Made by a program: the position numbers and the translations under genes. Below, in pieces: positions 730 to 25,159 of a DNA stretch of 64,000 nucleotides. The notes under the pieces are model-generated. The model saw nothing but the letters and a program-made list of their open reading frames with translations, ran no database searches and was not told the origin of the DNA. Every line of letters begins with the position of its first letter. The first letter of the stretch is position 1. Source of the stretch: an uncultured bacterium (lineage in GTDB: Bacteria > Pseudomonadota > Alphaproteobacteria > Rhodospirillales > Rhodospirillaceae); NCBI GenBank assembly GCA_903888485.1, contig CAISTS010000028.1, forward strand, positions 1 through 64,000, given 5' to 3'.

Positions 730-748
730 CTATCTTTCTACCTGATCT

Positions 749-6342: not shown

Positions 6343-6996
6343 ATGAAATTCTTCGTCGATACCGCCGACATCAAAGAGATCAAGGACCTCGCCGCCACGG
6401 GTATGGTCGATGGGGTGACCACCAATCCGTCGCTGGCCGCCAAGTCGGGCAAGAAATTCGTCGAATTGATCACTGAGATCTGCGCGGTGTGTCCCGGGCC
6501 CGTCAGCGCCGAGGTCACGGCGCTCGATCACGCGACCATGATGAAGGAAGCCGAGGTTCTCCGGAAAATCGCAAAGAACGTCACCATCAAGGTCCCGCTG
6601 ACGCCCGATGGCCTCAAAACCTGCAAGGCACTGTCCGACGACGGCACCATGGTGAACGTCACTTTGTGCTTCTCGCCGGCGCAGGCCCTCTTGGCCGCCA
6701 AGGCGGGTGCGGCCTTCATTTCGCCCTTCGTGGGCCGCCTCGACGATGTCGGCCAGGATGGCATGGAGCTGATCGACGATATTTGCACCATTTACCGTAA
6801 TTACGGGTTTGCCACCGAGGTATTGGTGGCTTCGATCCGCCACCCCATGCATGTAGTGGAAGCGGCCAAGATCGGCGCCCATGTGGCCACCATGCCGCCC
6901 GCCACCCTCAGGCAGTTGTTCAATCATCCGTTAACCGACAAGGGGCTAAAAGCCTTCATGGATGATTGGGCGAAGACCGGGCAGTCGATCCTCTGA
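6343..6996 (+). CDS. Transaldolase / fructose-6-phosphate aldolase family protein
   Basis: Class I aldolase of the short transaldolase subfamily, acting on sugar phosphates through a Schiff base. The ATG at 6343 gives 217 residues, the family length, beginning [13 protein letters not shown] with the [10 protein letters not shown] motif; the Schiff-base lysine lies in NVTIKVPLT near residue 85. The family includes both transaldolase (tal) and fructose-6-phosphate aldolase (fsa); the sequence does not decide which, although a position beside priA and atp is common in alphaproteobacteria. The frame stays open for 66 bases upstream into priA but lacks family similarity there. Confidence 0.93.
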
Positions 6997-7033
6997 CAGT
7001 CCGGCCCCACGCTCAGCAGGGGTAGAGGGGCAC

Positions 7034-7762
7034 ATGGCTGACAACTTCAAGGCTGGCACCAAGGACGTCGGTGTCGGACCCAAGACCGATCTGCGCGAGG
7101 GCGATGTGGTCGCGTACTTGCGCCGCAATCCGCGCCTCTTGCTCAACAATCCCGACATCTTGTCCGCCATCGCGCCCGAGACGCGCTTCGAGACCGATAC
7201 CGTTGTCGTCGATATGCAGCGTTTCGTCGTCGAGCGCCTGCGCCGTCAGGTGGATGATCTGAAAGCCTCCAGCGACAGCCTCGTCTCGACCACGCGCTCC
7301 AACATGTCGCTGGTCGAGCGTTCCATGGAATGCGCGCTGGCCCTGCTCTACGCGCGCGACTTCAACGAACTCGCCCAGGTCCTGCACGACGATGTGCCGG
7401 TGCATCTCGGCGTCGATTCCGTCTCCATCGGCTTTGAAGCCGATTCCATTCCCGCGGAAGCCGGTCACATCATCCGCACACTGGCGCCGGGCACCGTCGC
7501 CGCGCTGGTGCCGGGCGACGTTAGCACGCGCATTCGCGCCGAGACCGAAGGCGAGACCATGCTGTACGGCAGCGCCGCCGGCCTCGTACGCTCCGACGCC
7601 CTCGTCGCTCTGCCCGACGGTGAAGGTTTGCCGGCCGGTCTGTTTGCCGTAGGCTGCCGCAATCCGGGTCACTTCGAGCCGGGCCAGGGTACCGAGCTGA
7701 TCGCTTTCCTCGGCCATGTCACCCGTTACGCCGTGGGACGTTGGTGGACACTGAAGCTTTAG
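7034..7762 (+). CDS. DUF484 family protein
   Basis: Cytoplasmic protein of about 242 residues starting MADNFKAGTKDVGVG. GAGGGGCAC precedes the ATG at 7034, favouring it over an upstream in-frame start. The N-terminal part has the DUF484 pattern VVAYLRRNPRLLLNNPDIL, then a short coiled coil (VVDMQRFVVERLRRQVDDLK), then a GAF-like C-terminal domain. The family is typically found just upstream of xerC, and here it overlaps xerC by about 19 bases, so translational coupling is likely. The biochemical function is unknown. Confidence 0.9.
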   Translation: MADNFKAGTKDVGVGPKTDLREGDVVAYLRRNPRLLLNNPDILSAIAPETRFETDTVVVDMQRFVVERLRRQVDDLKASSDSLVSTTRSNMSLVERSMECALALLYARDFNELAQVLHDDVPVHLGVDSVSIGFEADSIPAEAGHIIRTLAPGTVAALVPGDVSTRIRAETEGETMLYGSAAGLVRSDALVALPDGEGLPAGLFAVGCRNPGHFEPGQGTELIAFLGHVTRYAVGRWWTLKL

Positions 7763-8688
7763 AGATCTCGTTTGCCGCACGCGGCGACCTCGTCGCCGCC
7801 ATCGCCGATTGGCGTGCCTGGCTTAATGCCGAGCGCCGCGCTTCCAAGCACACCGCCGACGCCTATGGCCGCGACCTTTCGGCGTTCCTTACGTTCCTCA
7901 CCGACCATCTGGGCGCGCAGGCCGATTGCACCGATCTCGCCTGTCTGAAGCCCGCCGATTTCCGCAGCTACCTCGCGCACCGCGCGAACCTCGGTATCGC
8001 ACGCAGCTCCATCGCGCGGGGTATGTCGACCTTGCGCAATTTCTTCCGTTTCTTGGGGCGCACCGGCCGTGCGGAGAATCCCGCCATCGGAACGGTGAAG
8101 ACGCCGCGCCTGCCCAAGACCGTACCAAAGGCCATCGACCAGGACGACGCCATGCGCGCCATCGCGCTGGCCGAAGAACTGCAGCAGGAGCCATGGATCG
8201 CCGCGCGCGACAGCGCGCTATTGATTCTGCTCTACGGCTGCGGTCTGCGTATCGGCGAAGCACTCGGGTTGACCTGCGCCGATGCGCCGACGGGCGATAC
8301 AATGCGCGTCATCGGCAAAGGTCAAAAGGAACGCGTTGTTCCGGTGCTGCCGGTCGTGCGCGAAGCCATCGCCGCCTATCGTGAGATCTGTCCCTTCGCC
8401 GCCACGCCCGGTGCGCCGCTGTTTGTCGGTAAACGCGGCAAGGCGCTCAATCCCGGTGTCGTACAGCGCCAGGTGCGCACGCTGCGCGCCCACTTGGGCC
8501 TCGCCGACAGCGCGACGCCGCATGCGTTCCGTCATAGCTTCGCCACGCACTTGCTGGCCGACGGCGGCGACTTACGTACGATTCAGGAGCTATTGGGCCA
8601 CGCTTCGCTGTCAACGACACAGCGCTACACCGTGGTCGATGCCGCGCGCCTCGCCAAGGTCTACGAAAAGGCGCATCCGCGCGCTTAG
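7744..8688 (+). CDS. xerC: Tyrosine recombinase XerC
   Basis: Site-specific recombinase resolving chromosome dimers at dif with XerD. It is about 314 residues: an N-terminal SAM-like core-binding domain (ADAYGRDLSAFLTFL), then a catalytic domain with Arg in YGCGLRIGEALG, Lys in GKGQKERVVP, HxxR in HAFRHSFATHLL, His in LLGHASLSTTQRY and the Tyr nucleophile there. GTG at 7744 is chosen because GGGA lies 5 bases upstream; TTG at 7741 is the alternative. It shares its last bases with the convergent rhomboid gene. The context is chromosomal housekeeping, not phage. Confidence 0.95.
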   Translation: MDTEALEISFAARGDLVAAIADWRAWLNAERRASKHTADAYGRDLSAFLTFLTDHLGAQADCTDLACLKPADFRSYLAHRANLGIARSSIARGMSTLRNFFRFLGRTGRAENPAIGTVKTPRLPKTVPKAIDQDDAMRAIALAEELQQEPWIAARDSALLILLYGCGLRIGEALGLTCADAPTGDTMRVIGKGQKERVVPVLPVVREAIAAYREICPFAATPGAPLFVGKRGKALNPGVVQRQVRTLRAHLGLADSATPHAFRHSFATHLLADGGDLRTIQELLGHASLSTTQRYTVVDAARLAKVYEKAHPRA

Positions 8689-9546: not shown

Positions 9547-10140
9547 ATGAAATCCGTTCCGGCCCTCCTTGCTTCTTTGGTCTTCGCCCAGCCTGTCGCG
9601 GCAGCCGACCCGACCACCTATCCCGACACCGACACCGACAAGCCGTGCACCAGCCCGGGCGAGAGCCCCGAGTGCGCGGCCAAGACCTTCTGGCTGTGCA
9701 CGGAGAAGTCCGTGGCCACCTGCAAGCTTGCCGGCCTCAATGTCCAGGCCGACGGCACGCAGCACAAGGACGACGGCACCGCGAAGAGCATTGCTTGGCT
9801 CAAGCCCTGGACCCAGACGTGGAATGAACTTCTGGCCGTCACACACCCCGACTACACCGTCTGGCAAATCGAAGGCTGGCGCGAGGTTAACAGCCAGCGC
9901 CTGCGTGGTGTGCCCGGCAATCGGCGCAACATGGCCGGCGATCTCGAGATGATGATCACTATGGCCGATGCCGGCGGCATGCAGGAGCGCGAGAGTGTGT
10001 TCCTGGCCGAACGCAAAGGTGTGTGGAGCGTCACGGGATTTGCGCGCTGGCGCGAAGGGCGCAACGTCACCGCTTGCGAGAAGCGTAAGCTCGGCTCGCT
10101 CGCGTGCCGTTACACCATTCCCGGCATCACCTCCTGGTAA
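9547..10140 (+). CDS. Secreted six-cysteine domain protein (stand-alone form)
   Basis: It is 197 residues with a clear signal peptide (MKSVPALLASLVFAQPVAAA, cleaved after about residue 20). I do not recognise a named family. Cysteines fall at 34, 43, 51, 59, 177 and 187; the N-terminal four sit in the pattern PC-x8-C-x2-KT-x3-C-x7-C-x3-GL. The same pattern and the same six positions recur in the proteins at 21897-22949 and 22968-24050, which carry an extra C-terminal domain absent here. Toward the C-terminus GVWSVTGFARW corresponds to GGWRMVGWSSS and DKWVIVGWHSS in those two. Six cysteines in an exported protein suggest three disulfides. It is flanked by unrelated minus-strand genes, so it is probably expressed alone. 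Confidence 0.85.
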   Translation: MKSVPALLASLVFAQPVAAADPTTYPDTDTDKPCTSPGESPECAAKTFWLCTEKSVATCKLAGLNVQADGTQHKDDGTAKSIAWLKPWTQTWNELLAVTHPDYTVWQIEGWREVNSQRLRGVPGNRRNMAGDLEMMITMADAGGMQERESVFLAERKGVWSVTGFARWREGRNVTACEKRKLGSLACRYTIPGITSW

Positions 10141-10908
10141 CTATTTTATTTCGCCGCGCAGGCGCGCGACGTGTTCGAACCGGGCGATCGCGACCCGTTC
10201 CATTTCCGGCGTCATCCTGAAACCGTCGTCGATACCCTTGCTCTGCCAGTCCTTCTTGGCGTGTGCGAATTTCTCACGCTGACGATCCAGGGCATTACCG
10301 GGCGATGCAAATTGCTCGCAGGTCTCGGTATCGATCTTTCTGTGATTGACGAGACGGCGCAGGCACGCGCGGTACAGCGTGTCCTCCGTCCCGTGCTTGC
10401 GAAAATCGGGTTCTTCGGGAAACCCCTGAATCATGTCGTGCCAGACCCGGCGTACACAGAAGTTGATCGGGCAGCTTTCGTCGAGTGAAGGGCGCCAATC
10501 CTCGTGCATGGGCATGTCGACTTTCACCCGCGTGAAGACGTAGCCCAGGGAATCTTCGGCCAGCAGCGCCTGGAGGCAGGTGTGGACATGGTTGGGATAG
10601 AACACATCGTCGGCATCAAGAAAGAACAAGAATTGGCCGGCTGTTTCACGGACCGCGCGGTTGCGCGAGAAAGCCGCGCCCCGATTGATATCGTTGGCAA
10701 GTACGCGCACGCCCTGCTGCCCTTTCAGGATGGCAGCGGTCACGTCGGCCGAACAATCATCGACGACGACAATTTCGAAATCGGCGGCGAGGCCTTGCGC
10801 CCGACAGTGCGCAATGGATGCGCGTGCGCTATTCAGCGTGCGGACAATGGTCTTGGCGGCGTTATACGCCGGGATGATGATCGCGGCGCCAGGCGTGCGC
10901 GGCGTCAT
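10141..10908 (-). CDS. Family 2 glycosyltransferase
   Basis: GT-A fold glycosyltransferase of 255 residues, predicted cytoplasmic. The nucleotide-sugar-binding N-terminus is AIIIPAYNAAKTIVRTL, followed by VVVDDCSADVT and the metal-binding FFLDADDVFYPNH near residue 100. There is no membrane segment. Donor and acceptor cannot be told from sequence. It begins 12 bases after lpdA on the same strand, so it probably trails the sucAB-lpdA transcript, an unusual partner for TCA genes. Confidence 0.88.
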   Translation of the reverse strand: MTPRTPGAAIIIPAYNAAKTIVRTLNSARASIAHCRAQGLAADFEIVVVDDCSADVTAAILKGQQGVRVLANDINRGAAFSRNRAVRETAGQFLFFLDADDVFYPNHVHTCLQALLAEDSLGYVFTRVKVDMPMHEDWRPSLDESCPINFCVRRVWHDMIQGFPEEPDFRKHGTEDTLYRACLRRLVNHRKIDTETCEQFASPGNALDRQREKFAHAKKDWQSKGIDDGFRMTPEMERVAIARFEHVARLRGEIK

Positions 10909-10920
10909 AGGGATATCACG

Positions 10921-12342
10921 TCAGATGTGTAGCGCGCGCTTATCGGCGGCCAGCGCCGCTTCTTTGACGGTTTCGCCGAGCTGCGGGTGCGCGTGGCACG
11001 TGCGTGCGATGTCTTCCGATGACGCGCCGAACTCCATTGCCACCGCCACTTCCATGATCAGATCGCCCGCCGCCGGGCCGACGATGTGGCAGCCGAGCAC
11101 GCGGTCGGTGCCGGCGTCGGCGAGGATCTTGGCAAAGCCGTCCGTATCGCCATTGGCACGCGCGCGGCCGTTGGCGGTGAAGGGGAACTTACCGACCTTG
11201 TAGGCAACGCCCGCGTCTTTCAGCTGCTCCTCGGTCTTGCCGATGCCGGCGACCTCGGGCCAGGTGTAGACCACGCTGGCGATGGCGTCGTAGTTGATGT
11301 GGCCCGGGTGTCCCGCGAGGATCTCGGCGCAAGCAACGCCCTCATCCTCGGCCTTGTGCGCCAGCATCATGCCGCCGATGACATCGCCGATGGCGAAGAT
11401 GCCTTCCACGTTCGTCTGATAATTCTCATCAGCCTCGACAAAGCCGCGATTGGAAACCTTCACGCCGACCTGATCGAGGCCCGCGCCGGCGATGTAGGGT
11501 CGCCGACCGATGGCCACGAGCACGACGTCCGCGTTGAGTTTTTCCGGATTGCCGCCGCCCTTGGCGGGTTCGAGCGTGACTTCGACGCCGTCCTTGCCCG
11601 GCTTGGCTGCCGTGACCTTGTGGCCCAAGCGGAACTTCATGCCCTGCTTTTCAAGGATGCGCTGCATCTGCTTGCGCACTTCGCCGTCCATGGGCGGCAG
11701 GATGACGTCGAGGAATTCGACCACGGTCACGTCCGTGCCGAGACGCCGCCAGACCGAGCCCATTTCGAGGCCGATCACGCCCGCGCCGATGACCACCATG
11801 GTCTTCGGGATCTTGGACAGCACCAGCGCACCGGTGGAGGAGACAATCTGCTTTTCGTCGATGGTCACGCCCGGAAGCGGCGTGACATCCGAGCCCGAGG
11901 CAATGACGACGTATTTGGTGACATAGGTCGTCTCGTTGCCCTTGTCGTCCTTGACGGCAACTTCGTGCGCGCCCGACTGCGCCTTCGCGACGCGGCCCCA
12001 GCCGCGCAGGTAAGCGACCTTGTTTTTCTTCAACAAGAATTCGATGCCGGTGGTGTTCTGCTTCACCACGTCGTCTTTGCGGGCCATCATTTTCGCGAGG
12101 TCCACCTCGACCTTGCCGACATTGATGCCGTGGGCGGCAAAAGCGTGGTTGGCTTCGTCCACTAGATGCGACGATTGCAGCAACGCCTTCGACGGGATGC
12201 AGCCGACATTGGTGCAGGTGCCGCCGAGAGCGCCGCGGCCTTCGACGCAGGCGGCCTTGAGGCCCAATTGCGAAGCCCGCAGTGCGCAGACATAACCGCC
12301 GGGACCGCCGCCGATGACAATGACGTCGAAGGTTTCAGCCAT
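10921..12342 (-). CDS. lpdA: Dihydrolipoyl dehydrogenase (E3)
   Basis: FAD-dependent enzyme that reoxidises dihydrolipoamide in the 2-oxoglutarate dehydrogenase complex, passing electrons to NAD. It is 473 residues from [18 protein letters not shown], the FAD-binding motif; an upstream in-frame extension lacks similarity and is excluded. The redox disulfide is in [13 protein letters not shown], the NAD-binding motif is [14 protein letters not shown], and the C-terminal HAHPQLGE supplies the catalytic His-Glu pair. It lies 4 bases after the GFA-family gene. Confidence 0.97.
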
Positions 12343-12346
12343 GGCT

Positions 12347-12772
12347 TTAAGTCCCTTGCATTGAAGGAGGGAACTCCGCGAATTGCGGAGCCGTGCCTCC
12401 AATATGATCCCACGGCGCTTTCGAGCCGACAAAAATGTGCTGGGCGATCTCGACGCCCGGATCACCATCGATGCTGCCGAGGGTCACGCCGTGTACGTCG
12501 TTGCCGTGTAAGCCACAGAGCGTGCTGCCGCAGGTGCCGCAGAAAGCCAGCCCCCAACCCGGCGTGGTCTCGTAACGCGAAAGCTGATCGGCGCCGGTGG
12601 TCCACGTCAGCGAGTCGGGCACAACCTCGGCGTAGGCCGAACCCGCGCCGCTAAAGGCCTTGCGGCAGCGCGAGCAGTGACAGCTGCGCGCGTTCTTCAG
12701 AGGCGCTGCGATCTTGTATGTGATCCGTCCGCAGAAGCACCCACCCGTTAAAGGTCCGCCTGGCAAAGGCAT
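12347..12772 (-). CDS. GFA / CENP-V family zinc-binding protein
   Basis: Small zinc protein of about 141 residues. Cysteines in [22 protein letters not shown] and [11 protein letters not shown] match the GFA fold. The family name comes from glutathione-dependent formaldehyde-activating enzyme, but most members have no proven activity. The start at 12772 is supported by AGGGTGAG just upstream and by the family N-terminus. It is tucked between sucB (19 bases before) and lpdA (4 bases after) and is surely cotranscribed, so a link to 2-oxoglutarate dehydrogenase function or to thiol/aldehyde handling is an inference. Confidence 0.9.
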
Positions 12773-12791
12773 CTCACCCTCCGGCTGGGCG

Positions 12792-14063
12792 TCAGGTCTC
12801 GATAAGCAGGCGGCTCGGATCTTCGATGGCTTCCTTGACGCGCACCAGGAAGGTGACGGCCTCGCGGCCATCGACAATGCGGTGATCATAGGAGAGCGCG
12901 AGATACATGATCGGCCGCGCGACGATCGAACCATCGTCCTGCACCACGGCGCGCTGCTTGATATTGTGCATCCCCAGGATGCCCGACTGCGGCGTATTGA
13001 GGATCGGCGTCGACAGCATGGAGCCGTAGATGCCGCCGTTGGTGATGGTGAAGGTGCCGCCGGTCATGTCCTCGATGGTCAGTTTGCCGTCGCGCGCCTT
13101 GCGCCCGAGGCCGGAGATCTCGGCCTCGATTTCGGCATAGGACTTGGTGTCGCAATCGCGCACCACGGGCACCACGAGGCCCTGCGGCGTGCCGACGGCG
13201 ACGCCCACATCGTAGTAATTCTTGTAGACCAGCTCGTCGCCCTGGATCTCGGCGTTGATGGCGGGGAGTTCCTTCAGCGCATTGACGGCGGCTTTAACGA
13301 AGAAGGACATGAAGCCCATCTTCACCCCGTGCTTCTTCTCGAAGGCGTCCTTGAACTTGTTGCGCAGCGCCATCACCGCCGACATGTCGGCTTCGTTGAA
13401 GGTCGTCAGCATCGCGGCGGTGTTCTGGGCTTCCTTCAGGCGCTCGGCGATCTTCTTGCGCAGGCGCGTCATCTTGACGCGTTCTTCGCGCGGGCCGCGA
13501 TCGGGCACAGAGGCTTTGGTGGCGCGTTCGCCGCCGCCCGCCATGTAGGTCAGCACGTCGGCCTTGGTCAGGCGGCCGTTCTTGCCCGAGGCGGGAATTT
13601 TCTTCGGATCGAAGCCGTGTTCGTCCACCAAATGACGCACGGACGGCGCCAGCGGGTAGTCAGACGGCAGCGACTGCGCCGGAACAGCCGGTTTCGGCGC
13701 GGCGGGCGGAGCCGCCGGCTTGGGCGCAGGTGCGGGAGCAGCCGCAGCAGGCTTTGGTGCGGGAGCCGGCGCGGGCGCAGCGGCGGCCTTGGGCGCTTCA
13801 GCTTTCTTGGCGGGCGCAGCGGCGCCAGCGCCGCCAATGATGCCCAGGATCGCGCCGGGTTTTACTTCGGCGCCGGTGTCGGCGGAAATCTCGCTGAGGG
13901 TGCCGGCTGCTTCGGCGCGCACCTCGACGGTGACTTTATCAGTCTCCAGCTCCACCAGCGGCTCGTCCTGAGCGACAGCGTCGCCCACCTTCTTGAACCA
14001 CTTCGCGACCGTGGCTTCGCTGACGGATTCACCCAGTGCGGGCACTTTGATGTCGGTCGCCAT
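12792..14063 (-). CDS. sucB: 2-oxoglutarate dehydrogenase E2 (dihydrolipoyl succinyltransferase)
   Basis: Core of the 2-oxoglutarate dehydrogenase complex, moving the succinyl group from lipoate to CoA. It is 423 residues from [17 protein letters not shown]. It has one lipoyl domain with the modified Lys in [11 protein letters not shown] (near residue 43), an Ala/Pro-rich linker of about 50 residues, an E1/E3-binding domain with [20 protein letters not shown], and the catalytic domain with the active-site [15 protein letters not shown]. It is 88 bases after sucA, followed by the GFA gene and lpdA. Confidence 0.98.
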
Positions 14064-14151
14064 GACGTCCCTCATTTTTCCGCGCTCATTAACCCGAGCA
14101 CGTGTTGATCTATTCGGGCGCCCCCGCGCCCTTATCGCTTACTCGGCTACT

Positions 14152-17097
14152 CTATTCGGCCGCCATTTTGCCGATCTTGGAGAGACGGCGGAAAGGCTGC
14201 GGGATCTGTTCGAGCGGCGTGTTGAGCGCCCATTCGCAAAGCTGGTTCTGCTCACGCACATGGATCTTCATCAGGCCCGTCGCCGGCGAAGCCGCCGGCG
14301 GACGGCCGGCGTAAACTGGGCGCTTGGCCTTGATGTCGAGACCGTCCAGCGCGTATTCGAGGCGGCGGTCGACGAAGGTCCACGAACCCATGTTGGCAGG
14401 CTCTTCCTGGCACCAGACCACTTCGGCGTTCTTGTACTTGGCGAACTCGCGCGCGAGGGTCTCTTTCGGCCACGGATAAATCTGCTCGACGCGGAGAATC
14501 GCAACGTCGTCGACGCCCTTGTCTTCGCGCGCTTGCAGAAGGTCGTAGTAGACCTTGCCGGAGCACACCACGACGCGGCGCACCTTGGCCGGCGCGGCAA
14601 TCTTGCCGGTTTCGCCATAGACACGCTGGAAGCTGGTGTTCTCGGACATCTCGTCCAAGGTCGAAATGCAGCGCTTGTGACGCAGCAGCGACTTCGGCGT
14701 CATGATGACCAAGGGCTTCCTGAAGTTGCGGCGCATCTGACGGCGCAGCGCGTGGAAGTAGTTGGCCGGCGTGGTGATGTTGCAAACCTGCCAGTTGTCT
14801 TGCGCGGATAGCTGCAGATAACGTTCCATGCGCGCCGAAGAGTGCTCGGGTCCCTGGCCTTCGAAGCCGTGCGGCAGCAGCATGACCAGACCGCACAGGC
14901 GCAGCCACTTGCTCTCGCCCGAGTTGATGAACTGGTCGATTATCATTTGCGCGCCATTGGAGAAGTCGCCGAACTGCGCCTCCCACAGCGTCAGTGTGTT
15001 GGGATCGGCGAGGCTGTAGCCGTATTCGAAGCCGAGCACCGAAAGCTCCGAGAGCGGGCTATCGATGACTTCGAACTTGGCCTGCTTTTCCGGGCGGATG
15101 TTGTTGAGGAAGACGTAGCGTTCTTCAGTGTTTTGGTCGACCAGCACCGAATGCCGTTGCGAGAACGTTCCGCGGCCGCAGTCTTGGCCCGACAGGCGCA
15201 CGGCGTTGCCTTCGACCGCGAGCGTGCCGTAGGCCAAAGCTTCGGCAGTTGCCCAGTCGATGTCCTTGCCGGTGTCGATAGCCTCTTTCTTGGCTTTCAG
15301 CTGACGCGCGATCTTGGCGTTTACCGCCCAGCCGTTGGGTGTCTTGCAGATCGCAGCACCAACCTCTTTGAGAAGATCGAGCGTCGCGCCGCTCTTATCG
15401 TCGCGGAATTCTTCCTCCTCGCCCATCTGCGCGAGGCCCTTCCACGCGCCCTCCAGCCAGTCGGCTTTGTTGGGCTTGAAGCTGGCTGCGGATTCGAAAT
15501 CCGCCTCCATCATGTGCATGAACTTCGACATCATCAGGTCAGCTTCTTGCTGGCTGAAGAGACCTTCCTTGACCAGCTTCTGTGCATAGATCGTGCGCAC
15601 GGTGGCGTGGCTTTCGATCGCCTTGTACATCAGCGGCTGCGTGAACTTGGGCTCGTCGCCCTCGTTGTGGCCGAAGCGGCGGTAGCACACCATATCGACG
15701 ACAACGTCGCTGCCGAACTCCTGACGGAATTCCATGGCCAGGCGCGCGCAATAGACAACGGCTTCCGGATCGTCGGCGTTGACGTGGAAGATCGGCGCTT
15801 CGACCATTTTCGCAATGTCGGTGCAGTAGAGGCCCGAGCGGCTGTACTGCGGGGTCGTGGTGAAACCGATTTGGTTGTTGATGACGAAGTGCAGCGTGCC
15901 ACCCGTCGTATAGCCCTTGATCTGCGAGAAGCCGAAACACTCGGCGATGATGCCTTGACCCGCGAAAGCCGCATCGCCGTGGATCAAGAGACCCATGACC
16001 TGCTTGCGGCCGGTGTCTCCCATCTGCTCCTGCTTGGCGCGCACTTTACCGAGCACGACGGGATCGACAACCTCGAGGTGCGACGGGTTGGCGGTCAGGG
16101 ACAGGTGCACGACATTGCCGTCGAATTCGCGGTCGGCGGACGTGCCGAGGTGATATTTCACGTCGCCCGAGCCTTCGACACTCTCGGGGTTGGACGAGTT
16201 GCCCTGGAATTCGGAGAACAACGCGCTGAACGGTTTGTTCATGACGTTGACGAGCACGTTGAGGCGCCCACGGTGGGCCATGCCGATGACAATCTGCTTG
16301 AGGCCCAGCTGGCCGCCGCGCTTGATGATCTGCTCGAGCGCCGGAATCGCCGCTTCACCGCCGTCGAGGCCGAAGCGCTTGGTGCCGGTGTACTTGATGC
16401 CGAGGAACTTCTCGAAGCCTTCGGCTTCCGTCAGCCGCTCCAAGATGGCTTTCTTGCCGTAGTCGGAGAAGTTGGGCTCGAGGCGGTCTTTCTCGAAGCG
16501 GCGCACAAGCCAGTCGCGCTGCTTGGGCGATTGGATGTGATTGAACTCGACGCCGATGGTGCCGCAGTAGGTCTGCTTGCAGGCGTCCAGAATCTGCTGG
16601 AGCGTCGCCTTGTCGAAACCCATGACGCCGCCGAGATGGATCTGGCGGCCGAGATCGGCGTCGGTGAAGCCATGGGTGCGGTAGTCGAGTTCCGGGTGAT
16701 CGGTGCTGCGACCCTTCGCGAGCGGATCGAGACTGGCGATCTGATGGCCGCGCGCGCGGTATGCGCGAATCATCTGCAGCGCGTGGATGGAATCTTCGGT
16801 CTGCTTGCGGATCGCGGCGCTGTCGGGGCCACCCGTGTCGGCAGCCTTCCCGTTCGGCTTCTCACCTTTACCCTTGGCGGGCTTGGCGACATCAGTCTCG
16901 GCGACGCCGATGATACCGGCGTCGGACGGCGCCCAACTCGCGCCTTCGATGTCTTTCAGAAGTTCGGCTTCTTCGTCGCCTAGATCGCGAAAGAAGCTTG
17001 CCCAGCTCGGATCGACTGCGGCCGGGTTCTTGAGGTAGGTCGCGTAAAGTTCAGCGATAAAAGTGGCGTTAGCGCCGGTAATGAAGGAGGCGTCCAC
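14152..17097 (-). CDS. sucA: 2-oxoglutarate dehydrogenase E1
   Basis: Thiamine-diphosphate enzyme that decarboxylates 2-oxoglutarate and succinylates the lipoyl domain of SucB. It is 981 residues. The N-terminal segment FIAELYATYLKNPAAVDPSW is the conserved OdhA start. The thiamine core includes GMAHRGRLNVLVN, IHGDAAFAGQGII and VVDMVCYRRFGHNEGDEP, and the C-terminal half has LLPHGFEGQGPEHSSARMER. A 234-base gap separates it from the sulfotransferase gene, so it likely has its own promoter. Confidence 0.99.
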   Translation of the reverse strand: MDASFITGANATFIAELYATYLKNPAAVDPSWASFFRDLGDEEAELLKDIEGASWAPSDAGIIGVAETDVAKPAKGKGEKPNGKAADTGGPDSAAIRKQTEDSIHALQMIRAYRARGHQIASLDPLAKGRSTDHPELDYRTHGFTDADLGRQIHLGGVMGFDKATLQQILDACKQTYCGTIGVEFNHIQSPKQRDWLVRRFEKDRLEPNFSDYGKKAILERLTEAEGFEKFLGIKYTGTKRFGLDGGEAAIPALEQIIKRGGQLGLKQIVIGMAHRGRLNVLVNVMNKPFSALFSEFQGNSSNPESVEGSGDVKYHLGTSADREFDGNVVHLSLTANPSHLEVVDPVVLGKVRAKQEQMGDTGRKQVMGLLIHGDAAFAGQGIIAECFGFSQIKGYTTGGTLHFVINNQIGFTTTPQYSRSGLYCTDIAKMVEAPIFHVNADDPEAVVYCARLAMEFRQEFGSDVVVDMVCYRRFGHNEGDEPKFTQPLMYKAIESHATVRTIYAQKLVKEGLFSQQEADLMMSKFMHMMEADFESAASFKPNKADWLEGAWKGLAQMGEEEEFRDDKSGATLDLLKEVGAAICKTPNGWAVNAKIARQLKAKKEAIDTGKDIDWATAEALAYGTLAVEGNAVRLSGQDCGRGTFSQRHSVLVDQNTEERYVFLNNIRPEKQAKFEVIDSPLSELSVLGFEYGYSLADPNTLTLWEAQFGDFSNGAQMIIDQFINSGESKWLRLCGLVMLLPHGFEGQGPEHSSARMERYLQLSAQDNWQVCNITTPANYFHALRRQMRRNFRKPLVIMTPKSLLRHKRCISTLDEMSENTSFQRVYGETGKIAAPAKVRRVVVCSGKVYYDLLQAREDKGVDDVAILRVEQIYPWPKETLAREFAKYKNAEVVWCQEEPANMGSWTFVDRRLEYALDGLDIKAKRPVYAGRPPAASPATGLMKIHVREQNQLCEWALNTPLEQIPQPFRRLSKIGKMAAE

Positions 17098-17180
17098 GGA
17101 TGAAGGTCCTTAAGGTCCCAACGGGCGCCCGGCGGGGGCCCCCGCGGGGCCAGGCCATTGATCGGGCGGCCAATTCTTTA

Positions 17181-17209
17181 GTAATAGACGAATATTCCCT
17201 TCCCCACAA
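17181..17209 (-). promoter_or_regulatory. Candidate sucA promoter
   Basis: Reading minus, TTGTGG (17209-17204) and TATTAC (17186-17181) are separated by 17 bases, a sigma-70-like layout with partial matches to both boxes. A start near 17174 would leave a leader of about 77 bases before sucA. The surrounding 17098-17331 stretch is locally AT-richer than the genes. The match is imperfect, so this is only a suggestion. Confidence 0.25.
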
Positions 17210-17331
17210 CGACTTAGACCGAAATTTACGCAAGTGTCACCGAGGTGCCCCGACCATTGCGGGAAAACCGCGCGGATTTATCCAGGCCGCCCGCCACTTA
17301 GACGAAAGTCCATACATACCAAAGGGTTGAC

Positions 17332-18006
17332 CTAGAGAATGCCGTAGGCGGCGGGGTCGCTGGAATAGCCGAACAGTTGGGCATCGCGGGCCACGAGGCC
17401 GCCAACGATGGCGAAGGTCTCGCGCGTATAGAGCTGGGTCCAGGGGGCGTGGTAGCTCTGATTGAAGTGGTCGAGTTCGAGCGTGGTCACGCCGAGGCGG
17501 GCTTTCACCTGGGCAAAATCCTCCGCCAGCGACTCGTAACGGCCGATGAAATTGACCGCGAGCCTGTCCGCGTCGTCGAGCAAAAAGGGGTGCTGCACGC
17601 CCGCGAGGATGTGCGCATCGGCGCCGCCGAGATTCGTTTTCGCATATTTGCCGAAGGTTCCGGCGGCTTCAGCTTCTTTGTGTCCCGCCACCGTCGGATT
17701 GATCAGGCGATAGTGGAACCACGACACCGCGACGTCCCACGGATTGCGCACGAAGGTGAAACTGAAGTAGCTGTCGTAGGTCTGGCGCCCGAGTGCGGCG
17801 ATGAAGCGCTTGGCCGAGGCATGCACGCCAAGGTCCCCGGCAGCGACGGGCAATCCGATCTTCTCGGCGTGTTTGCGGCGCGCGTCCGGCTTTTGCCCAC
17901 GCACGGGATAGAACGCATCGTGCAGCGAAAGCGCGCTGTTGATTGAGGTGCCCGCCGCTTTGGGCACATGGATGAAGATGAAGCGCTTATCCGCGGAAAG
18001 TATCAC
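17332..18006 (-). CDS. Sulfotransferase family 2 domain protein
   Basis: Predicted PAPS-dependent sulfotransferase of 224 residues acting on a glycan or lipid. The 5'-phosphosulfate-binding loop FIFIHVPKAAGTSI lies at residues 9-22 and the 3'-phosphate-binding segment VRNPWDVAVSWFHY lies mid-protein, with a preceding FSFTF strand. There is no signal peptide or membrane anchor. Its start overlaps the end of the PagL-like gene by 4 bases, so the pair is coupled. Together they suggest modification of surface lipid or polysaccharide; the acceptor is unknown. Confidence 0.87.
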   Translation of the reverse strand: MILSADKRFIFIHVPKAAGTSINSALSLHDAFYPVRGQKPDARRKHAEKIGLPVAAGDLGVHASAKRFIAALGRQTYDSYFSFTFVRNPWDVAVSWFHYRLINPTVAGHKEAEAAGTFGKYAKTNLGGADAHILAGVQHPFLLDDADRLAVNFIGRYESLAEDFAQVKARLGVTTLELDHFNQSYHAPWTQLYTRETFAIVGGLVARDAQLFGYSSDPAAYGIL

Positions 18007-18542
18007 GGCCCATCAAAGGTGAACGTGTACGTCGCAAGGATCGAGTTCACGCCCGGGTTCTTCTTATGAAAGTTGGCGTTGGAGATGTGATAGACGCCAA
18101 GGCCAAGGCGACCGCTGCCGCTGAGTGCGTAGCTGGTCGCGAGGCCAACGTGGAACTCGAAATCGCCGCCGAGGTCGAGCGCGCTCGAGCCCTGACGGTA
18201 GTAACCCGGGCCGCCTTCGAGCACGACTTCCCAGCGATCGTCTTCACCGAACACCAACGGCGCAGCAAGGCCGGCGTAAACGAATTGCGAGCCGCTGGTT
18301 TGCACCGCACCGCCAACCAGCGGCTTGAAGCCGCGGAAGACGCCGTCCGTGCCGAAGAAACCGTTTTGGAAACGATACTGCGCGCGGAACTCGGCTTGGT
18401 CGGGATTGCTCGCCACGCCGAACCCATACACGCCGGCACCGACCATCAGGTTGCCCTGATCCTTGGCGTGAGCGCTGGAGATGCAAAGCGCCGCGGCCAG
18501 CAAGGTGGCCGCGGCGCTGATACGATGAGACAACGTCTTCAT
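18003..18542 (-). CDS. PagL-like lipid A 3-O-deacylase / acyloxyacyl hydrolase family
   Basis: Predicted outer-membrane beta-barrel of 179 residues with a signal peptide ending AHA at residue 26. The C-terminal motif YHISNAN carries His152 and Ser154 in the PagL catalytic arrangement and is followed by HKKNPGVNS. The acidic residue seen at this place in characterised PagL is Asn here. Family members remove the 3-linked acyl chain from lipid A. The gene starts 16 bases after sucD ends and overlaps the sulfotransferase gene, so it is probably read from the mdh-sucCD transcript. Confidence 0.82.
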   Translation of the reverse strand: MKTLSHRISAAATLLAAALCISSAHAKDQGNLMVGAGVYGFGVASNPDQAEFRAQYRFQNGFFGTDGVFRGFKPLVGGAVQTSGSQFVYAGLAAPLVFGEDDRWEVVLEGGPGYYRQGSSALDLGGDFEFHVGLATSYALSGSGRLGLGVYHISNANFHKKNPGVNSILATYTFTFDGP

Positions 18543-18558
18543 GTGCGGATGAAAAGCC

Positions 18559-19434
18559 TTAGGCCTTCATCGCCTTGACCATGGTCGAGCCGAGCGAGGC
18601 CGGCGAGTCCGCGATCATGAACCCGGCGCCCTTCATGGCTTCGAACTTGGCCGCGGCGGTGCCTTTGCCGCCAGAGATGATAGCGCCGGCGTGGCCCATG
18701 CGGCGTCCCGGCGGGGCGGTGGCGCCCGCGACGAAACCGACGATGGGCTTTTTCTTCTTGTGCGCCTTGTAGAAGGCTGCGGCGTCTTCTTCGGCAGTAC
18801 CGCCGATTTCGCCGATCATAATGATGCCCTGGGTCTCTTCGTCATTGAGGAAGAGATCGAGGCAGTCGATGAAGTTGGTGCCGTTGACCGGATCACCGCC
18901 GATGCCGATGCAAGTGGTCTGGCCGAGGCCGGACGCGGTGGTTTGCGCGACAGCTTCGTACGTGAGCGTGCCCGAGCGCGAGACGATGCCGATCTTGCCC
19001 CGGCGATGAATGTGGCCGGGCATGATGCCGATCTTGCACTCGCCCGGCGTGATGATGCCCGGGCAGTTAGGTCCGATCAAACGGGTCTTTGAACCCTGCA
19101 GGGCGCGCTTGACCTTGACCATGTCGAGCACAGGGATGCCTTCGGTGATGCACACCGCCAGGGGGATCTCAGCGTCGATGGCTTCGAGAATGGCGTCCGC
19201 CGCGAACGGCGGCGGTACATAGATCACGGACGCATCGCAGCCGGTGGCGTTCTTCGCCTGCGCGACGGTGTCGAACACCGGCAGGTCGAGGTGCTTGGTG
19301 CCGCCTTTGCCCGGCGTCACGCCGCCGACCATCTGCGTGCCATACGCAATAGCTTGCTCGGAGTGGAAGGTGCCTTGGCTGCCGGTGAAACCCTGGCAGA
19401 TAACCTTCGTGTTCTTATTGACGAGAACGGCCAT
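18559..19434 (-). CDS. sucD: Succinyl-CoA ligase subunit alpha
   Basis: Alpha subunit of the ligase that makes ATP or GTP from succinyl-CoA. It is 291 residues. The CoA-binding fold begins [43 protein letters not shown] is the conserved ligase loop, and the phosphohistidine is in [15 protein letters not shown] near the C-terminus. Its ATG is one base beyond the sucC stop, showing translational coupling. Confidence 0.98.
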
Positions 19435-19435
19435 G

Positions 19436-20635
19436 TTACGCGGCCTCCTTCACGGCCTTGACGACCTTCTGGGCCGCATCGGCGAGGTTGTCCGCGGAGA
19501 TGATCGGAAGGCCTGAATCCGCCATGATCTTCTTGCCGAGCTCGACGTTGGTGCCTTCGAGGCGCACGACCAGCGGCACATTGAGGCTGATTTCACGGGC
19601 CGCCGACACCACGCCTTCGGCGATGACGTCGCAGCGCATGATGCCGCCGAAGATGTTGACCAGAATGCCTTCGACGTTGGGATCGGACAGGATGATCTTG
19701 AAGGCGCGCGTGACGCGCTCCTTGGTCGCGCCGCCGCCGACGTCGAGGAAGTTGGCCGGAGCAGCGCCATACAGCTTGATGATATCCATGGTCGCCATGG
19801 CCAAGCCTGCGCCATTGACCATGCAGCCGATCGAGCCGTCGAGCTTGATGTAGTTGAGGTCGTGCTTGGAAGCCTCGAGCTCCATCGGGTCTTCCTCGTC
19901 CTCATCGCGCAGCTCGACGATTTCCGGATGCCGATAGAGCGCGTTGGAATCGAAATTCATCTTGGCGTCGAGCGGCAGCACATCGCCCTCGGAGGTGACG
20001 ACGAGCGGATTGATTTCGAGCATCGAAGCATCGGTGGCGAGGAACGCGTTGTAGAGCGCGATCAGCAGCTTGGTCGCGGACTTGATCTGGCTGTCCTTGA
20101 GGCCGAGAGCGAATGCGATCTTGCGGCAATGGAAACCTTGGATGCCCGTGGCCGGGTCGATGCTCTGGAAAACGATCTTCTCGGGAGTGTCGTGCGCGAC
20201 GTCTTCGATGTTCACGCCGCCTTCGGTCGAAGCCATGATGGTGACGCGGCTGGTGCCGCGATCCACCAGAAATGCGAGATAAAGTTCGCGCGCGATGTTG
20301 CAGCCGGACTCGATATAGACGCGCTTGACCTTCTTGCCTTCGGGGCCTGACTGGATCGTGACCAGCGTGTTGCCGATCATCTGCTTGGCGTTCTCCTTGA
20401 CGTCGGCGACAGACTTAACGACGCGCACGCCGCCTTTACCGCCCGCGGCCGCTTCCTTGAAAGTGCCTTTGCCGCGCCCACCGGCATGGATCTGCGACTT
20501 GACCACAAAGATATTGGTCTTCAGCCCCTGCGCGACCTTTTCGGCTTCTTCGGCGGTGTAAGCGACGCCACCGTCGAGCACGGGCACGCCGTACTTCTTC
20601 AGGAGCTGTTTCGCTTGGTATTCATGGATATTCAT
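19436..20635 (-). CDS. sucC: Succinyl-CoA ligase subunit beta
   Basis: Nucleotide-binding subunit of succinyl-CoA ligase, 399 residues from [17 protein letters not shown], the invariant family N-terminus. ATP-grasp features include [15 protein letters not shown] and LEINPLVVT; the C-terminal ligase domain has [13 protein letters not shown] and [15 protein letters not shown]. The reading frame stays open upstream into mdh, but that extension has no family similarity. It is 26 bases after mdh. Confidence 0.98.
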
Positions 20636-20661
20636 GGAGGTGCGATCTCTCTTTTCTTCGT

Positions 20662-21639
<978 letters not shown>

Positions 21640-21896
21640 TTAGGTGTTTTTATTCCGTACGGTCGCTGGCCCTGGTGGAGTGAGAGGGTCCGACGGCGAC
21701 CGCGAATTGAGGTGCCGTGGTAGCGCGAAACGCGCCCTCAGGGCAAGCACAGCAACACGGTAAAACTTCCCCGGCCAACCCGCTGGGAAGATTGCTTTTC
21801 TCGGCTGCGGCGGTGAACTAAGCTTTGGCTTGGGGGAATGGGCTGCTTTGCGCCGCAGCGAGGGTCAGATGGGTGCAGAATTTAGGAAGGGCTGCG

Positions 21897-22949
21897 ATGA
21901 CACGTGGGTGCCGGCCGACCATCGCCCTAGGCCTCATCTTGACCATGGGATCCGCACCCGCCGTTGCAGCGGAAGTGCCCGGCCTGTGGAAAACGCAGCC
22001 GGCGGACCATACCGCGCTCGCGCGGCCCGACCTGTCCCAGCCCTGCGGGGGACCAGACACGACGCCCGTCTGTGTTTTCAAGACCTACCTCGCCTGCGCT
22101 CTCTATGATGCGCCCAAGCTGTGCAGCGCCGCCGGCCTCGAAGGCGTGCTCGAACGCTATCCCGGCGACGATACCTTGGACCGCGAGGTGCTGAGCACGC
22201 CGTGGCAGCTCCCTTTCGAGCGGCTGATGCCAGAAGCCTTCGCGCTTCATCTGTATGACGCCGGCGTGGCGCCGGCGCGCCGTTTTGACGGTGCCACCAG
22301 GCCTACGTCATTCACGGGCGAGGCTTTTGAGCTCGTACTGGATATCCCTGAGCCTTACGTGAAGGGCTTGGTCTACTGGCTTTCAGCCTTCTTTCAGCCG
22401 CGCACCGCCGGCGGGTGGCGCATGGTGGGTTGGTCGAGCTCGCGTAAGGCCGCGTGCAATTTTGCCTCAGGCACCGCGGCATGGGGTCCCTGCCGCTGGT
22501 TCACCAAAACTCTCGCGCAACGCGATGTCTTTGGCCCGGAGGTCAAGCAGATCTGGGCGTCACCGACCCCGCCGGGGCGCGACGACTATCCCCACCCGGG
22601 GCTGGAGTTGATGATGGGCCTGCCGCACCAGCCCATAGCCGCGCCCTTCGCCGGCATTATCGTGCGGCGCGCGCTGAAGTACCCCGATGTGCCGCTCTAT
22701 GACTGGGTGGTGATCGAGGGCGAAGGCCGCGAGGCCGGCATGACCGTCAAGCTGGCCCTGGTTGACCGCAGCGGCCCGCCCGCCGGGACCCGCATCGACA
22801 TTGCCGCCCCCCTCGGCCGGCCCCAGTGGGTGGAAGCCGAGCACCCGGGCGCCGGACGCTTTGTGCATATAGAATTGCTGAAGGACGGCCAGCAGATCGA
22901 TCCGCGCACCGTCATGCGCGAACGCAAAGCTCAGGATGTGGCAAAGTAG
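21897..22949 (+). CDS. Secreted six-cysteine domain fused to degenerate M23-like domain (paralogue 1)
   Basis: It is 350 residues from the ATG at 21897, which has AGGAAGG six bases upstream and a good signal peptide (ALGLILTMGSAPAVAAE). Residues 45-200 form the six-cysteine domain (Cys 50, 59, 67, 76, 187, 199). Residues 230-340 resemble an M23 (LytM) peptidase: YPHPGLE, PIAAPFAGIIV, YDWVVIEG, FVHIELLKDGQQIDP. Versus the family's HxxxD and HxH, it has H233 with E237 (Asp replaced) and F322-V-H324 (first His replaced), so peptidase activity is doubtful. It is followed after 18 bases by its paralogue. The fold is inferred from pattern only. Confidence 0.85.
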   Translation: MTRGCRPTIALGLILTMGSAPAVAAEVPGLWKTQPADHTALARPDLSQPCGGPDTTPVCVFKTYLACALYDAPKLCSAAGLEGVLERYPGDDTLDREVLSTPWQLPFERLMPEAFALHLYDAGVAPARRFDGATRPTSFTGEAFELVLDIPEPYVKGLVYWLSAFFQPRTAGGWRMVGWSSSRKAACNFASGTAAWGPCRWFTKTLAQRDVFGPEVKQIWASPTPPGRDDYPHPGLELMMGLPHQPIAAPFAGIIVRRALKYPDVPLYDWVVIEGEGREAGMTVKLALVDRSGPPAGTRIDIAAPLGRPQWVEAEHPGAGRFVHIELLKDGQQIDPRTVMRERKAQDVAK

Positions 22950-22967
22950 GCGAAGGAAGGGTCTCCC

Positions 22968-24050
22968 ATGAAGCGCCATCTCCTTTCTGCATGTGTTGCT
23001 TCGCTGTTGGCGAGCAGTGGTGGGCCAGTCCTTGCACAGCAGACGACTTTGCCCCCGGCCTATTGGGAGGATTTCAAAGGCTATACGCCGCCGGCACCCG
23101 GGCCGGATCTCACCCAGCCTTGCAAAAGCGCGACGACACATCCCTTGTGCGCATTTAAGACGTGGGCGGCATGTATAACCTACGACCAGCCCCAGCTTTG
23201 CGCCGCGGTGGGTTTAGCCGGAAGCGTTGCACGCCATGAGAAACCCTCGACGCTCGATCAGAAACTGCTGACCGAGCCTTGGTTGTTGCCTCTTGATCAG
23301 ATTCTGCCGGATGCCTTTGCGTTTCAGCTTTTCAACGGCGGTATCCCGCACAAGGACCGGTTCGCCATCATTTCGTACGGTGCCCGTCCGCTGGAAGCCG
23401 ATGTCCAAAAGAAGATTTTGGCCGTGCGAGACGGTGGAATTTCGGAGCTGATCGTCGATATCCCCGAACTTGATTTCACAACCGGCCTCATCCAGATGTC
23501 GTTCTTCTTCCGCAACGACGCTGACAAATGGGTGATCGTCGGTTGGCACAGTTCGCGCAACGGTGCGTGCGCACCACCGCTCGCGCCGGGAAATTGGCGG
23601 CCGTGCGACCTGCACATCCGCGACCTAGCCCTCAGAGACACAGCCACGGGTACGCATACGTTTCCCGTGATTTGGGCATCGGCCAAACCTCTCGGCAACG
23701 CCGATTACAGTCATATGGGAGTGGATTTTGAGATGCCGGTTGGTGAGAGCGCCGTTGCCGCATACTCCGGGGCGATCGTGCGTCGTGTCCCGCTGTACCT
23801 GGATACCCCAGCGTATGACTGGGTTGTTCTCCAGACCACCACGGGGCCCAATGTAACGATAAAATATGCGAACGTGGATCGTAGGGGGCCCGAAGTGGGA
23901 GCCGCCGTGCCCGCTGGCGATAGCCTGGGCCGCGTGCAAGAGTCTACCTTGGAACATCCCGGGGCAACGAACACGATGCACTTCGAAGTCTTTATCAACG
24001 GGCAGAATGTGGACCCCATGACCGTCCTTCCACGGAGACCAAGTCCTTAA
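22968..24050 (+). CDS. Secreted six-cysteine domain fused to degenerate M23-like domain (paralogue 2)
   Basis: It is 360 residues. AAGGAAGGG precedes the ATG, and the signal peptide is ACVASLLASSGGPVLAQ. The six-cysteine domain has Cys 52, 61, 69, 78, 201 and 213. The C-terminal M23-like domain keeps SHMGVDFEMP (H249, D253) and H338, the three residues that would bind zinc, but the catalytic-base histidine of HxH is Thr336 (NTMHFEVFINGQNVDP). It may bind metal or peptidoglycan without cleaving, as in LytM-type activators; that is inference. Its stop codon shares a base with the start of the ChaN-like gene. Confidence 0.86.
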   Translation: MKRHLLSACVASLLASSGGPVLAQQTTLPPAYWEDFKGYTPPAPGPDLTQPCKSATTHPLCAFKTWAACITYDQPQLCAAVGLAGSVARHEKPSTLDQKLLTEPWLLPLDQILPDAFAFQLFNGGIPHKDRFAIISYGARPLEADVQKKILAVRDGGISELIVDIPELDFTTGLIQMSFFFRNDADKWVIVGWHSSRNGACAPPLAPGNWRPCDLHIRDLALRDTATGTHTFPVIWASAKPLGNADYSHMGVDFEMPVGESAVAAYSGAIVRRVPLYLDTPAYDWVVLQTTTGPNVTIKYANVDRRGPEVGAAVPAGDSLGRVQESTLEHPGATNTMHFEVFINGQNVDPMTVLPRRPSP

Positions 24051-25159
24051 TGTCGCTGGTAAAACACCCACCACAAATTCTTTGGGGGGCTGCGTTCTTG
24101 CTAGCGTCGTGCACTGCGCCAGATGCGATTGCGCCGCGGACTGTCGCACCCGCGCCGCAACCCACCACTGTCTGGCCGGCGGCGACACCCGCGGCAACGC
24201 AAGCGAGCTTGCCGGACCTGACATCGTTTCTGCTGGCGCGCACCGACGGCGGCGCGCGCGCGCCCACCTTTGTGACGCTCGACGAAGCCGCCGATGTGCT
24301 CGCGGGCTACGACGTCATCTTCCTCGGCGAAGCGCACCAACACCCGGCCAACCACCTGGCGCAGATGGCGCTGTTCCGCGCGATCTTTGCGCGCGCGCCG
24401 GCGCTCTCGCTCTCGATGGAGCAATTCGAGCGCGACGTGCAGCCCGTGGTCGATGAATATCTGGCCGGCAAAATCGGCGAGACACCTTTCGCGCGGCGCG
24501 CCCGGGCCTGGGGTAACTATTCCACCAGCTACCGGCCCCTCGTCGAATTCGCCAAGGACCACAAACTGCCGGTCATCGCCGCCAACGCGCCCGAGAACGT
24601 CATCCGCTGCATCGGCCGCGAGGGCCTTAAGGTGTTCGACCGCCTGAAGCCCGAGCAGCGCGCCTGGGCGGCGGCGGCCATCAATCAGCAGGATGGTCCT
24701 TATAAAGACAAGTTCTTTGGCTTCGTCGGCACCGACGCCGGCCACGGCGGCGACGGATCCAAAGATAAAACCGCCGCGGCAAAGCGTGTGCCGACCGAAA
24801 CGCAGCTCCGCAGCTTCACCGCACAGGTGACGCGCGACGACACCATGGCCGAGTCCATCGCCAAACATCTCGAGAAAAACCCGGGGCGCAAAGTCGTGCA
24901 CCTCAACGGCTCCTTCCACAGCGATTCATTCCTCGGCACGGTCGAGCGTCTGAAGATGCGCATGCCGAACCTGAAGATCGCCGTGGTCAATCCGGAGTTC
25001 GCCGAGGACCCGGCCCTTCCCAAGGTCGAGGACCCCAAGGGCGGCACGTTCACGCTGCTCGTGCGTGAGCTGCCGGAGTTTTACGCCAACGACGCCGAGA
25101 TGAGCGAAGCCATCAAGCGCCAAATGGCGCAGCGCTCCGCCACGAAGTGCGAGCTTTAA
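24050..25159 (+). CDS. ChaN-like haem/cofactor-binding lipoprotein
   Basis: It is 369 residues with a lipoprotein signal ending in the lipobox LASC (Cys21), so it is membrane-anchored in the periplasm. A Pro/Ala-rich linker leads to the ChaN/Tiki-like domain: VIFLGEAHQHPANHLAQM, then SMEQFERDVQP with the conserved Glu, and VVHLNGSFHSD near the C-terminus. The related ChaN of Campylobacter is reported to bind haem. It is translationally coupled to the two six-cysteine/M23-like genes, the last gene of that operon, and its stop abuts the stop of convergent zapE. Confidence 0.86.
   Translation: MSLVKHPPQILWGAAFLLASCTAPDAIAPRTVAPAPQPTTVWPAATPAATQASLPDLTSFLLARTDGGARAPTFVTLDEAADVLAGYDVIFLGEAHQHPANHLAQMALFRAIFARAPALSLSMEQFERDVQPVVDEYLAGKIGETPFARRARAWGNYSTSYRPLVEFAKDHKLPVIAANAPENVIRCIGREGLKVFDRLKPEQRAWAAAAINQQDGPYKDKFFGFVGTDAGHGGDGSKDKTAAAKRVPTETQLRSFTAQVTRDDTMAESIAKHLEKNPGRKVVHLNGSFHSDSFLGTVERLKMRMPNLKIAVVNPEFAEDPALPKVEDPKGGTFTLLVRELPEFYANDAEMSEAIKRQMAQRSATKCEL

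Follow-up and report, generated by a model that had tools for sequence, protein, structure and literature searches.

Within a 64,000-nucleotide stretch of DNA from an uncultured bacterium of the Rhodospirillaceae (positions 1 to 64,000 of contig CAISTS010000028.1, assembly GCA_903888485.1; hereafter the window), three forward-strand genes encode proteins that combine a signal peptide with a common N-terminal domain, and the question they raise is what this domain does. We refer to the domain as DOM. P0001 (9547..10140, 197 amino acids) is the bare domain, and P0002 (21897..22949, 350 amino acids) and P0003 (22968..24050, 360 amino acids) carry a second, M23-like domain behind it; here and below, a signal peptide on a DOM protein is a judgement by eye. 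Comparison of sequences and gene orders leads us to regard DOM as a probable inhibitor of its partner peptidoglycan hydrolase, secreted to the periplasm, presumably stabilised by disulfides and serving in immunity or in superinfection exclusion.

An earlier note on this DNA had placed three open reading frames at these positions and had read in them the pattern PC-x8-C-x2-KT-x3-C-x(7,8)-C-x3-GL, followed by a late C-x(9 or 11)-C pair. We find both in all three translations, and the proteins are homologous: BLASTP links P0001 to P0003 (E 1e-7) and to P0002 (E 1e-6), and P0002 to P0003 (E 5e-69, 39% over 316 amino acids). A profile built from 18 DOM sequences (A3), run against the genome of the window, detects the domain at 9607-10137 in P0001 (E 4e-53), 22005..22526 in P0002 (E 3e-59) and 23085..23636 in P0003 (E 4e-55), values that are partly circular because all three are rows of A3. 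The six cysteines that the note called conserved are so within the window's group; over 50 aligned relatives, only four are invariant, together with one proline (before the second cysteine) and one tryptophan. This four-cysteine core is found in all 50 rows, and two cysteines 7-16 residues apart within the last 60 amino acids occur in 36 of them. In some DOM proteins (L069, L146, L166 and L173) a lipobox-like cysteine ends the signal peptide, as judged by eye. The domain occurs alone, in two or three copies per protein, or fused to M23, which bears out its description as a module.

The claim that no named family covers DOM also stands. Pfam returned only weak, sub-threshold hits to the domain in the members scanned (P0001-P0003, two genes of L067, L068, L187, L195 and L196), NCBIfam and PHROGs gave no convincing match among the members scanned, the PADLOC defence library had zero hits for six members, and no chain among the PDB sequences reached E<=1 with the DOM profiles A4 or A5. 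Searches of the open-licence literature in PubMed Central turned up no description of the family or of convergent hydrolase/inhibitor cassettes.

The note had missed what the genes next to DOM reveal, namely a genomic association between the family and peptidoglycan hydrolases. Using a DOM-only profile, we located 60 loci in 44 genomes outside the window's genus and typed the neighbouring genes, called as greedy choices of open reading frames, with hidden Markov models (HMMs) of M23 and muramidase-like enzymes. In 34 of the 60 loci the next gene encodes a peptidoglycan hydrolase: 15 are M23 enzymes in convergent orientation, 14 are convergent muramidase-like enzymes and five are M23 enzymes on the same strand, so that 29 of the 34 pairs lie tail to tail and five are co-directional. 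By rank, hydrolases account for 34 of 112 adjacent genes and for 5 of 418 genes further off (Fisher p 3e-20); when nine HMM-seed genes that were themselves DOM neighbours (eight in the muramidase-like HMM, one in the M23 HMM) are removed, 25 of 103 adjacent genes remain against 5 of 418 (p 1e-14), both p values being too small because the loci of related genomes are not independent. The 60 include L193 (in G481), probably a false hit without the cysteine core, and L176, a C-terminal fragment. Outside the 34 stand L187, where Pfam places an M23 gene beside DOM, and L170, where DOM adjoins a muramidase-like remnant. G734, a genome outside the discovery set, shows the same arrangement: each of the three DOM genes detected in it faces a muramidase-like gene tail to tail (E 5e-12 to 9e-23).

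The type of DOM follows the class of its partner. We built a tree of 34 paired DOMs (19 with M23, 15 with muramidase-like enzymes), of which 32 come from 30 of the 34 paired loci and the others from L195 and L067; the paired loci L188-L191, with several DOM copies, were left out. Enzyme class changes twice on this tree (1-3 times over bootstraps) against a shuffled mean of 11.3, and none of 500 shuffles was as low.

Comparison of cassettes further shows that the two genes can exchange their cores as a block. Two neighbouring cassettes of the distant genome G734 share 97% identity across 526 bp at the 5' end of the enzyme gene and 95% across 371 bp at the 5' end of the DOM gene, and the ~1.7 kb between these conserved flanks have been replaced (34-57 matches per 100 columns). 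At the protein level, the first 150 amino acids of the enzymes are 98% identical and the remainder 26-46%; the first 100 amino acids of the DOM proteins are 90-96% identical and the remainder 0-36%. The flanks of a third G734 cassette match at 92%. In the same manner, L138 and L149, each compared with L139, have flanks of 82-84% identity and no detectable similarity between them.

These results are consistent with a usual setting in which the DOM gene would be one half of a toxin/inhibitor cassette. The hydrolase domain, at the 3' end of its carrier gene, would meet the 3' end of the DOM gene tail to tail, the carrier being either a virion protein of a phage or a free-standing protein whose N-terminal part binds peptidoglycan or is of another kind. 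Because the variable 3' halves then lie side by side, a single recombination event could replace both cores and keep both 5' ends. DOM, predicted to reside in the periplasm and to be held together by disulfides, would bind and inhibit the enzyme, and the producing cell or lysogen would thereby be protected from the hydrolase of a sibling, a rival or a superinfecting particle.

A number of observations weigh against this proposal. Linked inheritance alone could also make DOM type follow enzyme class, and the exchange test therefore carries more weight. That test has its own counterexample: between L138 and L149 the enzyme is 82% identical throughout and the middle of DOM has diverged beyond detection, so the cores of enzyme and inhibitor are replaced together often, not always. 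The script found no hydrolase as the next gene in 26 of the 60 loci, seven of which end at a contig edge just past the DOM gene, and apparent orphans include a group of family f22 (L155, L158, L159, L160, L166 and L173) as well as the window's genus. By eye, partner enzymes show no obvious signal peptide, and the type VI secretion system (T6SS) does not explain their export. Finally, the evidence behind the name of the muramidase-like class is weak, and its HMM was seeded with eight DOM neighbours. PG_binding_1 in L161, L181, L182 and L192 and PG_binding_3 in L153 pass the Pfam score, Glyco_hydro_108 in the L182 enzyme stays below it (E 0.006), the same enzyme has a sub-threshold NCBIfam match to a holin-associated muramidase (E 1.4e-4), and the remaining members of the class are without a Pfam hit. 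At E 1e-7, the class HMM also recovers a protein that is truly GH108 (L170:7356-8600; PF05838, E 3e-19).

Some features of the partners and of the orphans were seen in passing. Partners with either M23 or muramidase-like cores share an N-terminal region (D-x-RY; mostly HPEH and YPG; then a VRAYxQ-like motif), which lies at L138:4997-5320 and recurs in L139, L144, L145, L149, L152, L163, L165 and L190; it is possibly a delivery region. In L084, two proteins (6318-7805 and 10044-11417, minus strand) are 72-82% identical over their first 150 amino acids and unlike in their C-terminal parts, one of which ends in M23; the stretch between them holds DOM genes and a fragment of one, as well as an open reading frame that by eye is transposase-like. 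Tandem DOM genes, very similar by sight, stand beside one M23 gene in L154 (5882-6367 and 6881-7366, plus strand), likely a duplication of the inhibitor. The six f22 DOM genes, which have no adjoining hydrolase by the two HMMs, may form a second class of orphans; in L159 and L166, the two f22 loci scanned, the next gene has weak matches to DUF7408.

Where do such cassettes belong? Six phage-like loci carry DOM next to hydrolases of three classes: M23 in L068, muramidase-like in L167, L171, L195 and L207, and GH24 in L196. In L068, the M23 protein and then DOM lie amid SU10-type portal and capsid genes. The convergent partner in L167 and L171 is a large protein bearing the muramidase-like core, and the gene that follows matches phrog_418, an internal virion protein; the N-terminus of the L171 partner matches phage families called endolysin (E 3e-17), and the L167 partner has no PHROG match. 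L195, from IMG/VR, has the order terminase, portal fused to a muramidase-like core, DOM (convergent), prohead protease and capsid. In L196, also from IMG/VR, a protein with an N-terminus like that of the L068 M23 protein (48-56% over the first 150 amino acids) and a GH24 lysozyme core (E 6e-23) precedes DOM; upstream of them are a second lysozyme, standing alone (E 1e-37), and weak matches to Rz/Rz1-like genes. In L207, which belongs to G734, the hydrolase/DOM pair adjoins two phage tail genes. The fusion in L195 was unexpected: the portal protein (455-2494, plus strand; PF04860, 1e-85) runs directly into the C-terminal muramidase-like domain. A virion location of the paired enzymes is suggested by these carrier proteins and neighbouring genes.

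Such contexts make it well conceivable, at somewhat less than an even chance, that DOM was first a superinfection-exclusion protein of phages or prophages against the virion hydrolase of an incoming related phage and later came to protect bacteria from phages, the bacterial pairs being phage remnants. Outside L196, the paired hydrolases of these loci are encoded on or next to genes of the virion (those for a portal or an internal virion protein, an SU10-type head operon, or tail genes), in the viral contig L196 the pair lies beside a phage lysozyme that stands alone and weak Rz/Rz1-like genes, and the DOMs of two phage loci are the nearest to those of the window's genus. These two, from L068 and L196, nest within the clade of that genus (support 99/98), and a tree that keeps the genus as a sole clade without them is disfavoured (p-AU 0.016 in the approximately unbiased test), a result to be read with their long branches and with the naming of the group after an earlier tree in mind. 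Other observations speak against this history. Of 45 DOM-positive genomes, 16 have phrog_418: in two it lies no more than about 4 kb away from DOM, and in four more it shares a contig with DOM at a distance of roughly 9-47 kb. With so few genomes having it near DOM, and neighbours scanned less than exhaustively, a prophage setting is not demonstrated for most of the 60 loci. Moreover, 50,697 GenBank phage records contained no match to two queries, the DOM proteins of L068 and L163. The same queries found no match among GenBank plasmids, and the viral_contigs set had none to the L068 protein or to two of five DNA patterns.

A second reading, possible if somewhat more doubtful, is that the pairs are antibacterial effectors and immunity proteins delivered by a secretion system and that the phage cases are a side branch. 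The pairs resemble effector/immunity loci in that their cores vary while the 5' ends are kept, inhibitor genes can stand in tandem and some inhibitors have several domains (L154, L184, L185, L188 and G734). Several partners also carry PG_binding_1. A variable, toxin-like gene next to DOM, as in T6SS effector/immunity pairs, is likewise present. The T6SS, the sole secretion system tested, shows no link to DOM: VipA is present in 5 of 50 DOM-positive and 23 of 247 DOM-negative genomes (odds ratio 1.08, p 0.80). T6SS immunity as a general reading was rejected, since VipA is no commoner in DOM-positive genomes.

A bolder picture, again at somewhat less than an even chance, is that of a mobile two-gene cassette that arms phages and phage-like particles. 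Virion proteins unrelated to one another (portal, internal virion or head-operon proteins) would acquire a hydrolase core by grafting, together with a tail-to-tail gene for its periplasmic inhibitor, and the cores would be exchanged as a block. Bacteria would keep stand-alone inhibitors, some of them joined to an inactive version of the enzyme, for protection in the periplasm against phages or rivals.

The window itself contains the fused form. The earlier note had recognised the fusion in P0002 and P0003 without identifying the second domain. In P0003 it belongs to the M23/LytM family (residues 248-350, 23709..24017; PF01551 Peptidase_M23, E 6.4e-11, above the gathering score). Pfam finds nothing in P0002, yet this protein aligns throughout with P0003 in BLASTP, and our own M23 HMM matches it at 22617..22937 (E 8.5e-10). 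Both domains are degenerate. In P0002, HPGLE replaces the HxxxD motif and FVH replaces HxH; in P0003, HxxxD is present and TMH replaces HxH. The loss is general: the first, catalytic histidine of HxH is found in 0 of 12 fused proteins and in 21 of 21 partner M23 domains examined, and HxxxD in one of the 12 (P0003) and again in 21 of 21, three M23 matches (L143, L181 and one of two in L191) having been skipped because the pattern did not extract them. With the first histidine of its HxH replaced, P0003 is probably not a peptidase, and we do not class the fused domain as one. A comparable protein occurs in L187 (4973-6238, minus strand), where one chain contains DOM, a degenerate M23 domain and a second DOM, and the gene overlaps the end of an M23 gene.

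As to the origin of the fused domain, the best M23 match of P0003 outside the fused proteins is a prophage enzyme of G043 (E 1.8e-8), but the two do not group together in the M23 tree.

In the window, neither the M23 nor the muramidase-like HMM, nor Pfam among the neighbours scanned, detected an enzyme of the partner type, and matches of P0003 to other M23 genes of its own genome are weak (E 0.1-0.3), which makes the window's copies orphans. Our preferred reading is that they are inhibitors kept against foreign enzymes. P0001 would be a bare inhibitor-like chromosomal protein with no adjacent enzyme, and P0002 and P0003 would present DOM on an M23 domain without its catalytic histidine, which might act as a wall anchor or a decoy.

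The distribution of these copies bears on how they arose. For the genus-level counts we searched 148 genomes (that of the window and its relatives), 19 of them in the window's genus. The P0001 type is present in 14 of the 19 and the fused type in 11; another bare type occurs in four other genomes of the genus (G002, G003, G007 and G013). Among the 19, P0003 was found only in the window's genome as an extra copy, and it is 35-39% identical to all 11 other fused proteins, no nearer to the adjacent P0002. In a tree from which five long-branched rows had been left out, as they were for the p-AU test, bare and fused types form separate, supported clades. This pattern, together with the conserved positions of the genes where examined, lends no support to the note's lineage-specific duplication as a recent event. 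Among 297 genomes of the order, the genus included, A3 matches 50; in a class sample of 385 it matches 11, counting the window's own, G093 and the doubtful G481; A4 matches four of 299 in a phylum sample: the window's own, G093, G734 and a doubtful one in G779, whose open frame is 34 amino acids long with internal stops.

The fused genes have a fixed place on the chromosome in the loci seen. A malate dehydrogenase gene (20662..21627, minus strand; Pfam Ldh_1_N/Ldh_1_C) lies divergently on one side, and on the other a ChaN-like (Cofac_haem_bdg) lipoprotein gene (24050..25159, plus strand; Pfam E 1.1e-56) starts on the last base of the P0003 reading frame, a one-base overlap. The order malate dehydrogenase, fused gene, ChaN-like gene recurs in L071, L073 and L074, as seen by sight from N-termini. 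Such constancy, the lack of a hydrolase beside them and a domain sequence that is still conserved after the catalytic histidine was lost in 12 of 12 would also suit regulators like EnvC and NlpD, in which a degenerate LytM domain activates a division amidase and DOM would tune it, leaving no inhibitor role. An amidase-regulator role is possible for the fused form. As an account of the window's proteins in place of inhibition, we consider it unlikely: the window's Pfam-named neighbours include no amidase or division gene, only 11 of 19 genomes of the genus have the fused type, and DOM elsewhere would go unexplained.

A role as chaperone, activator or spanin-like lysis accessory of the hydrolase is the least probable, since, although the five co-directional pairs and those of L068 and L196 would allow it, the 29 convergent ones are not co-transcribed, unlike a co-expressed chaperone or lysis accessory, partnerless DOM genes are kept across a whole genus, and joint replacement of the cores fits inhibition specificity at least as well.

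If DOM is indeed an inhibitor, about forty candidate pairs become available across three enzyme classes, one of which consists of a single locus, and the natural core swaps may show where specificity lies. Inhibition would also explain the convergent gene order, as it places both specificity cores in one exchangeable block, and would give a testable function to unannotated secreted proteins. It points to a possible periplasmic layer of protection beyond what PADLOC covers, judging from the six members scanned. To our knowledge, inhibitors that act on virion-borne peptidoglycan hydrolases and are understood in molecular terms are few.

Several known systems resemble these pairs in part. Ivy, MliC/PliC, PliI, PliG and LprI are secreted bacterial lysozyme inhibitors, and inhibition of a wall hydrolase by a secreted protein is what DOM would share with them as a working analogy; it differs in being encoded with its enzyme, and the Pfam models of Ivy, MliC, PliI, PliG and LprI are unmatched by the DOM members scanned. 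In lysostaphin/Lif and zoocin A/Zif, an M23 endopeptidase is encoded next to a self-protection gene, whose FemABX-like product alters peptidoglycan. By contrast, DOM is a predicted secreted, cysteine-bearing protein, and the members scanned show no match to such a family. The Tai and Tsi proteins, periplasmic immunity proteins of T6SS peptidoglycan-hydrolase effectors, are likewise small secreted proteins beside a variable wall hydrolase, with duplicated copies. DOM differs from them in having no T6SS association, in its mostly convergent rather than co-directional order and in matching no Pfam family among the members scanned.

The closest working analogue is Spackle (gp61.3) of phage T4, which is described as a periplasmic inhibitor of the tail lysozyme gp5 without appreciable inhibition of the T4 endolysin (PMC7677548, PMC7650644). 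On that description, both would be secreted periplasmic partners of a virion-borne hydrolase distinct from the lysis endolysin, a division of labour paralleled in L196, where the paired lysozyme is accompanied by a stand-alone one. By sequence, A4 and A5 retrieve no PDB chain at E<=1. Unlike Spackle, DOM pairs with three classes of enzyme, mostly in convergent orientation, and occurs in bacterial chromosomes. DOM appears to be a new family of cognate wall-hydrolase inhibitors, a kind already known, and its convergent gene arrangement is unusual.

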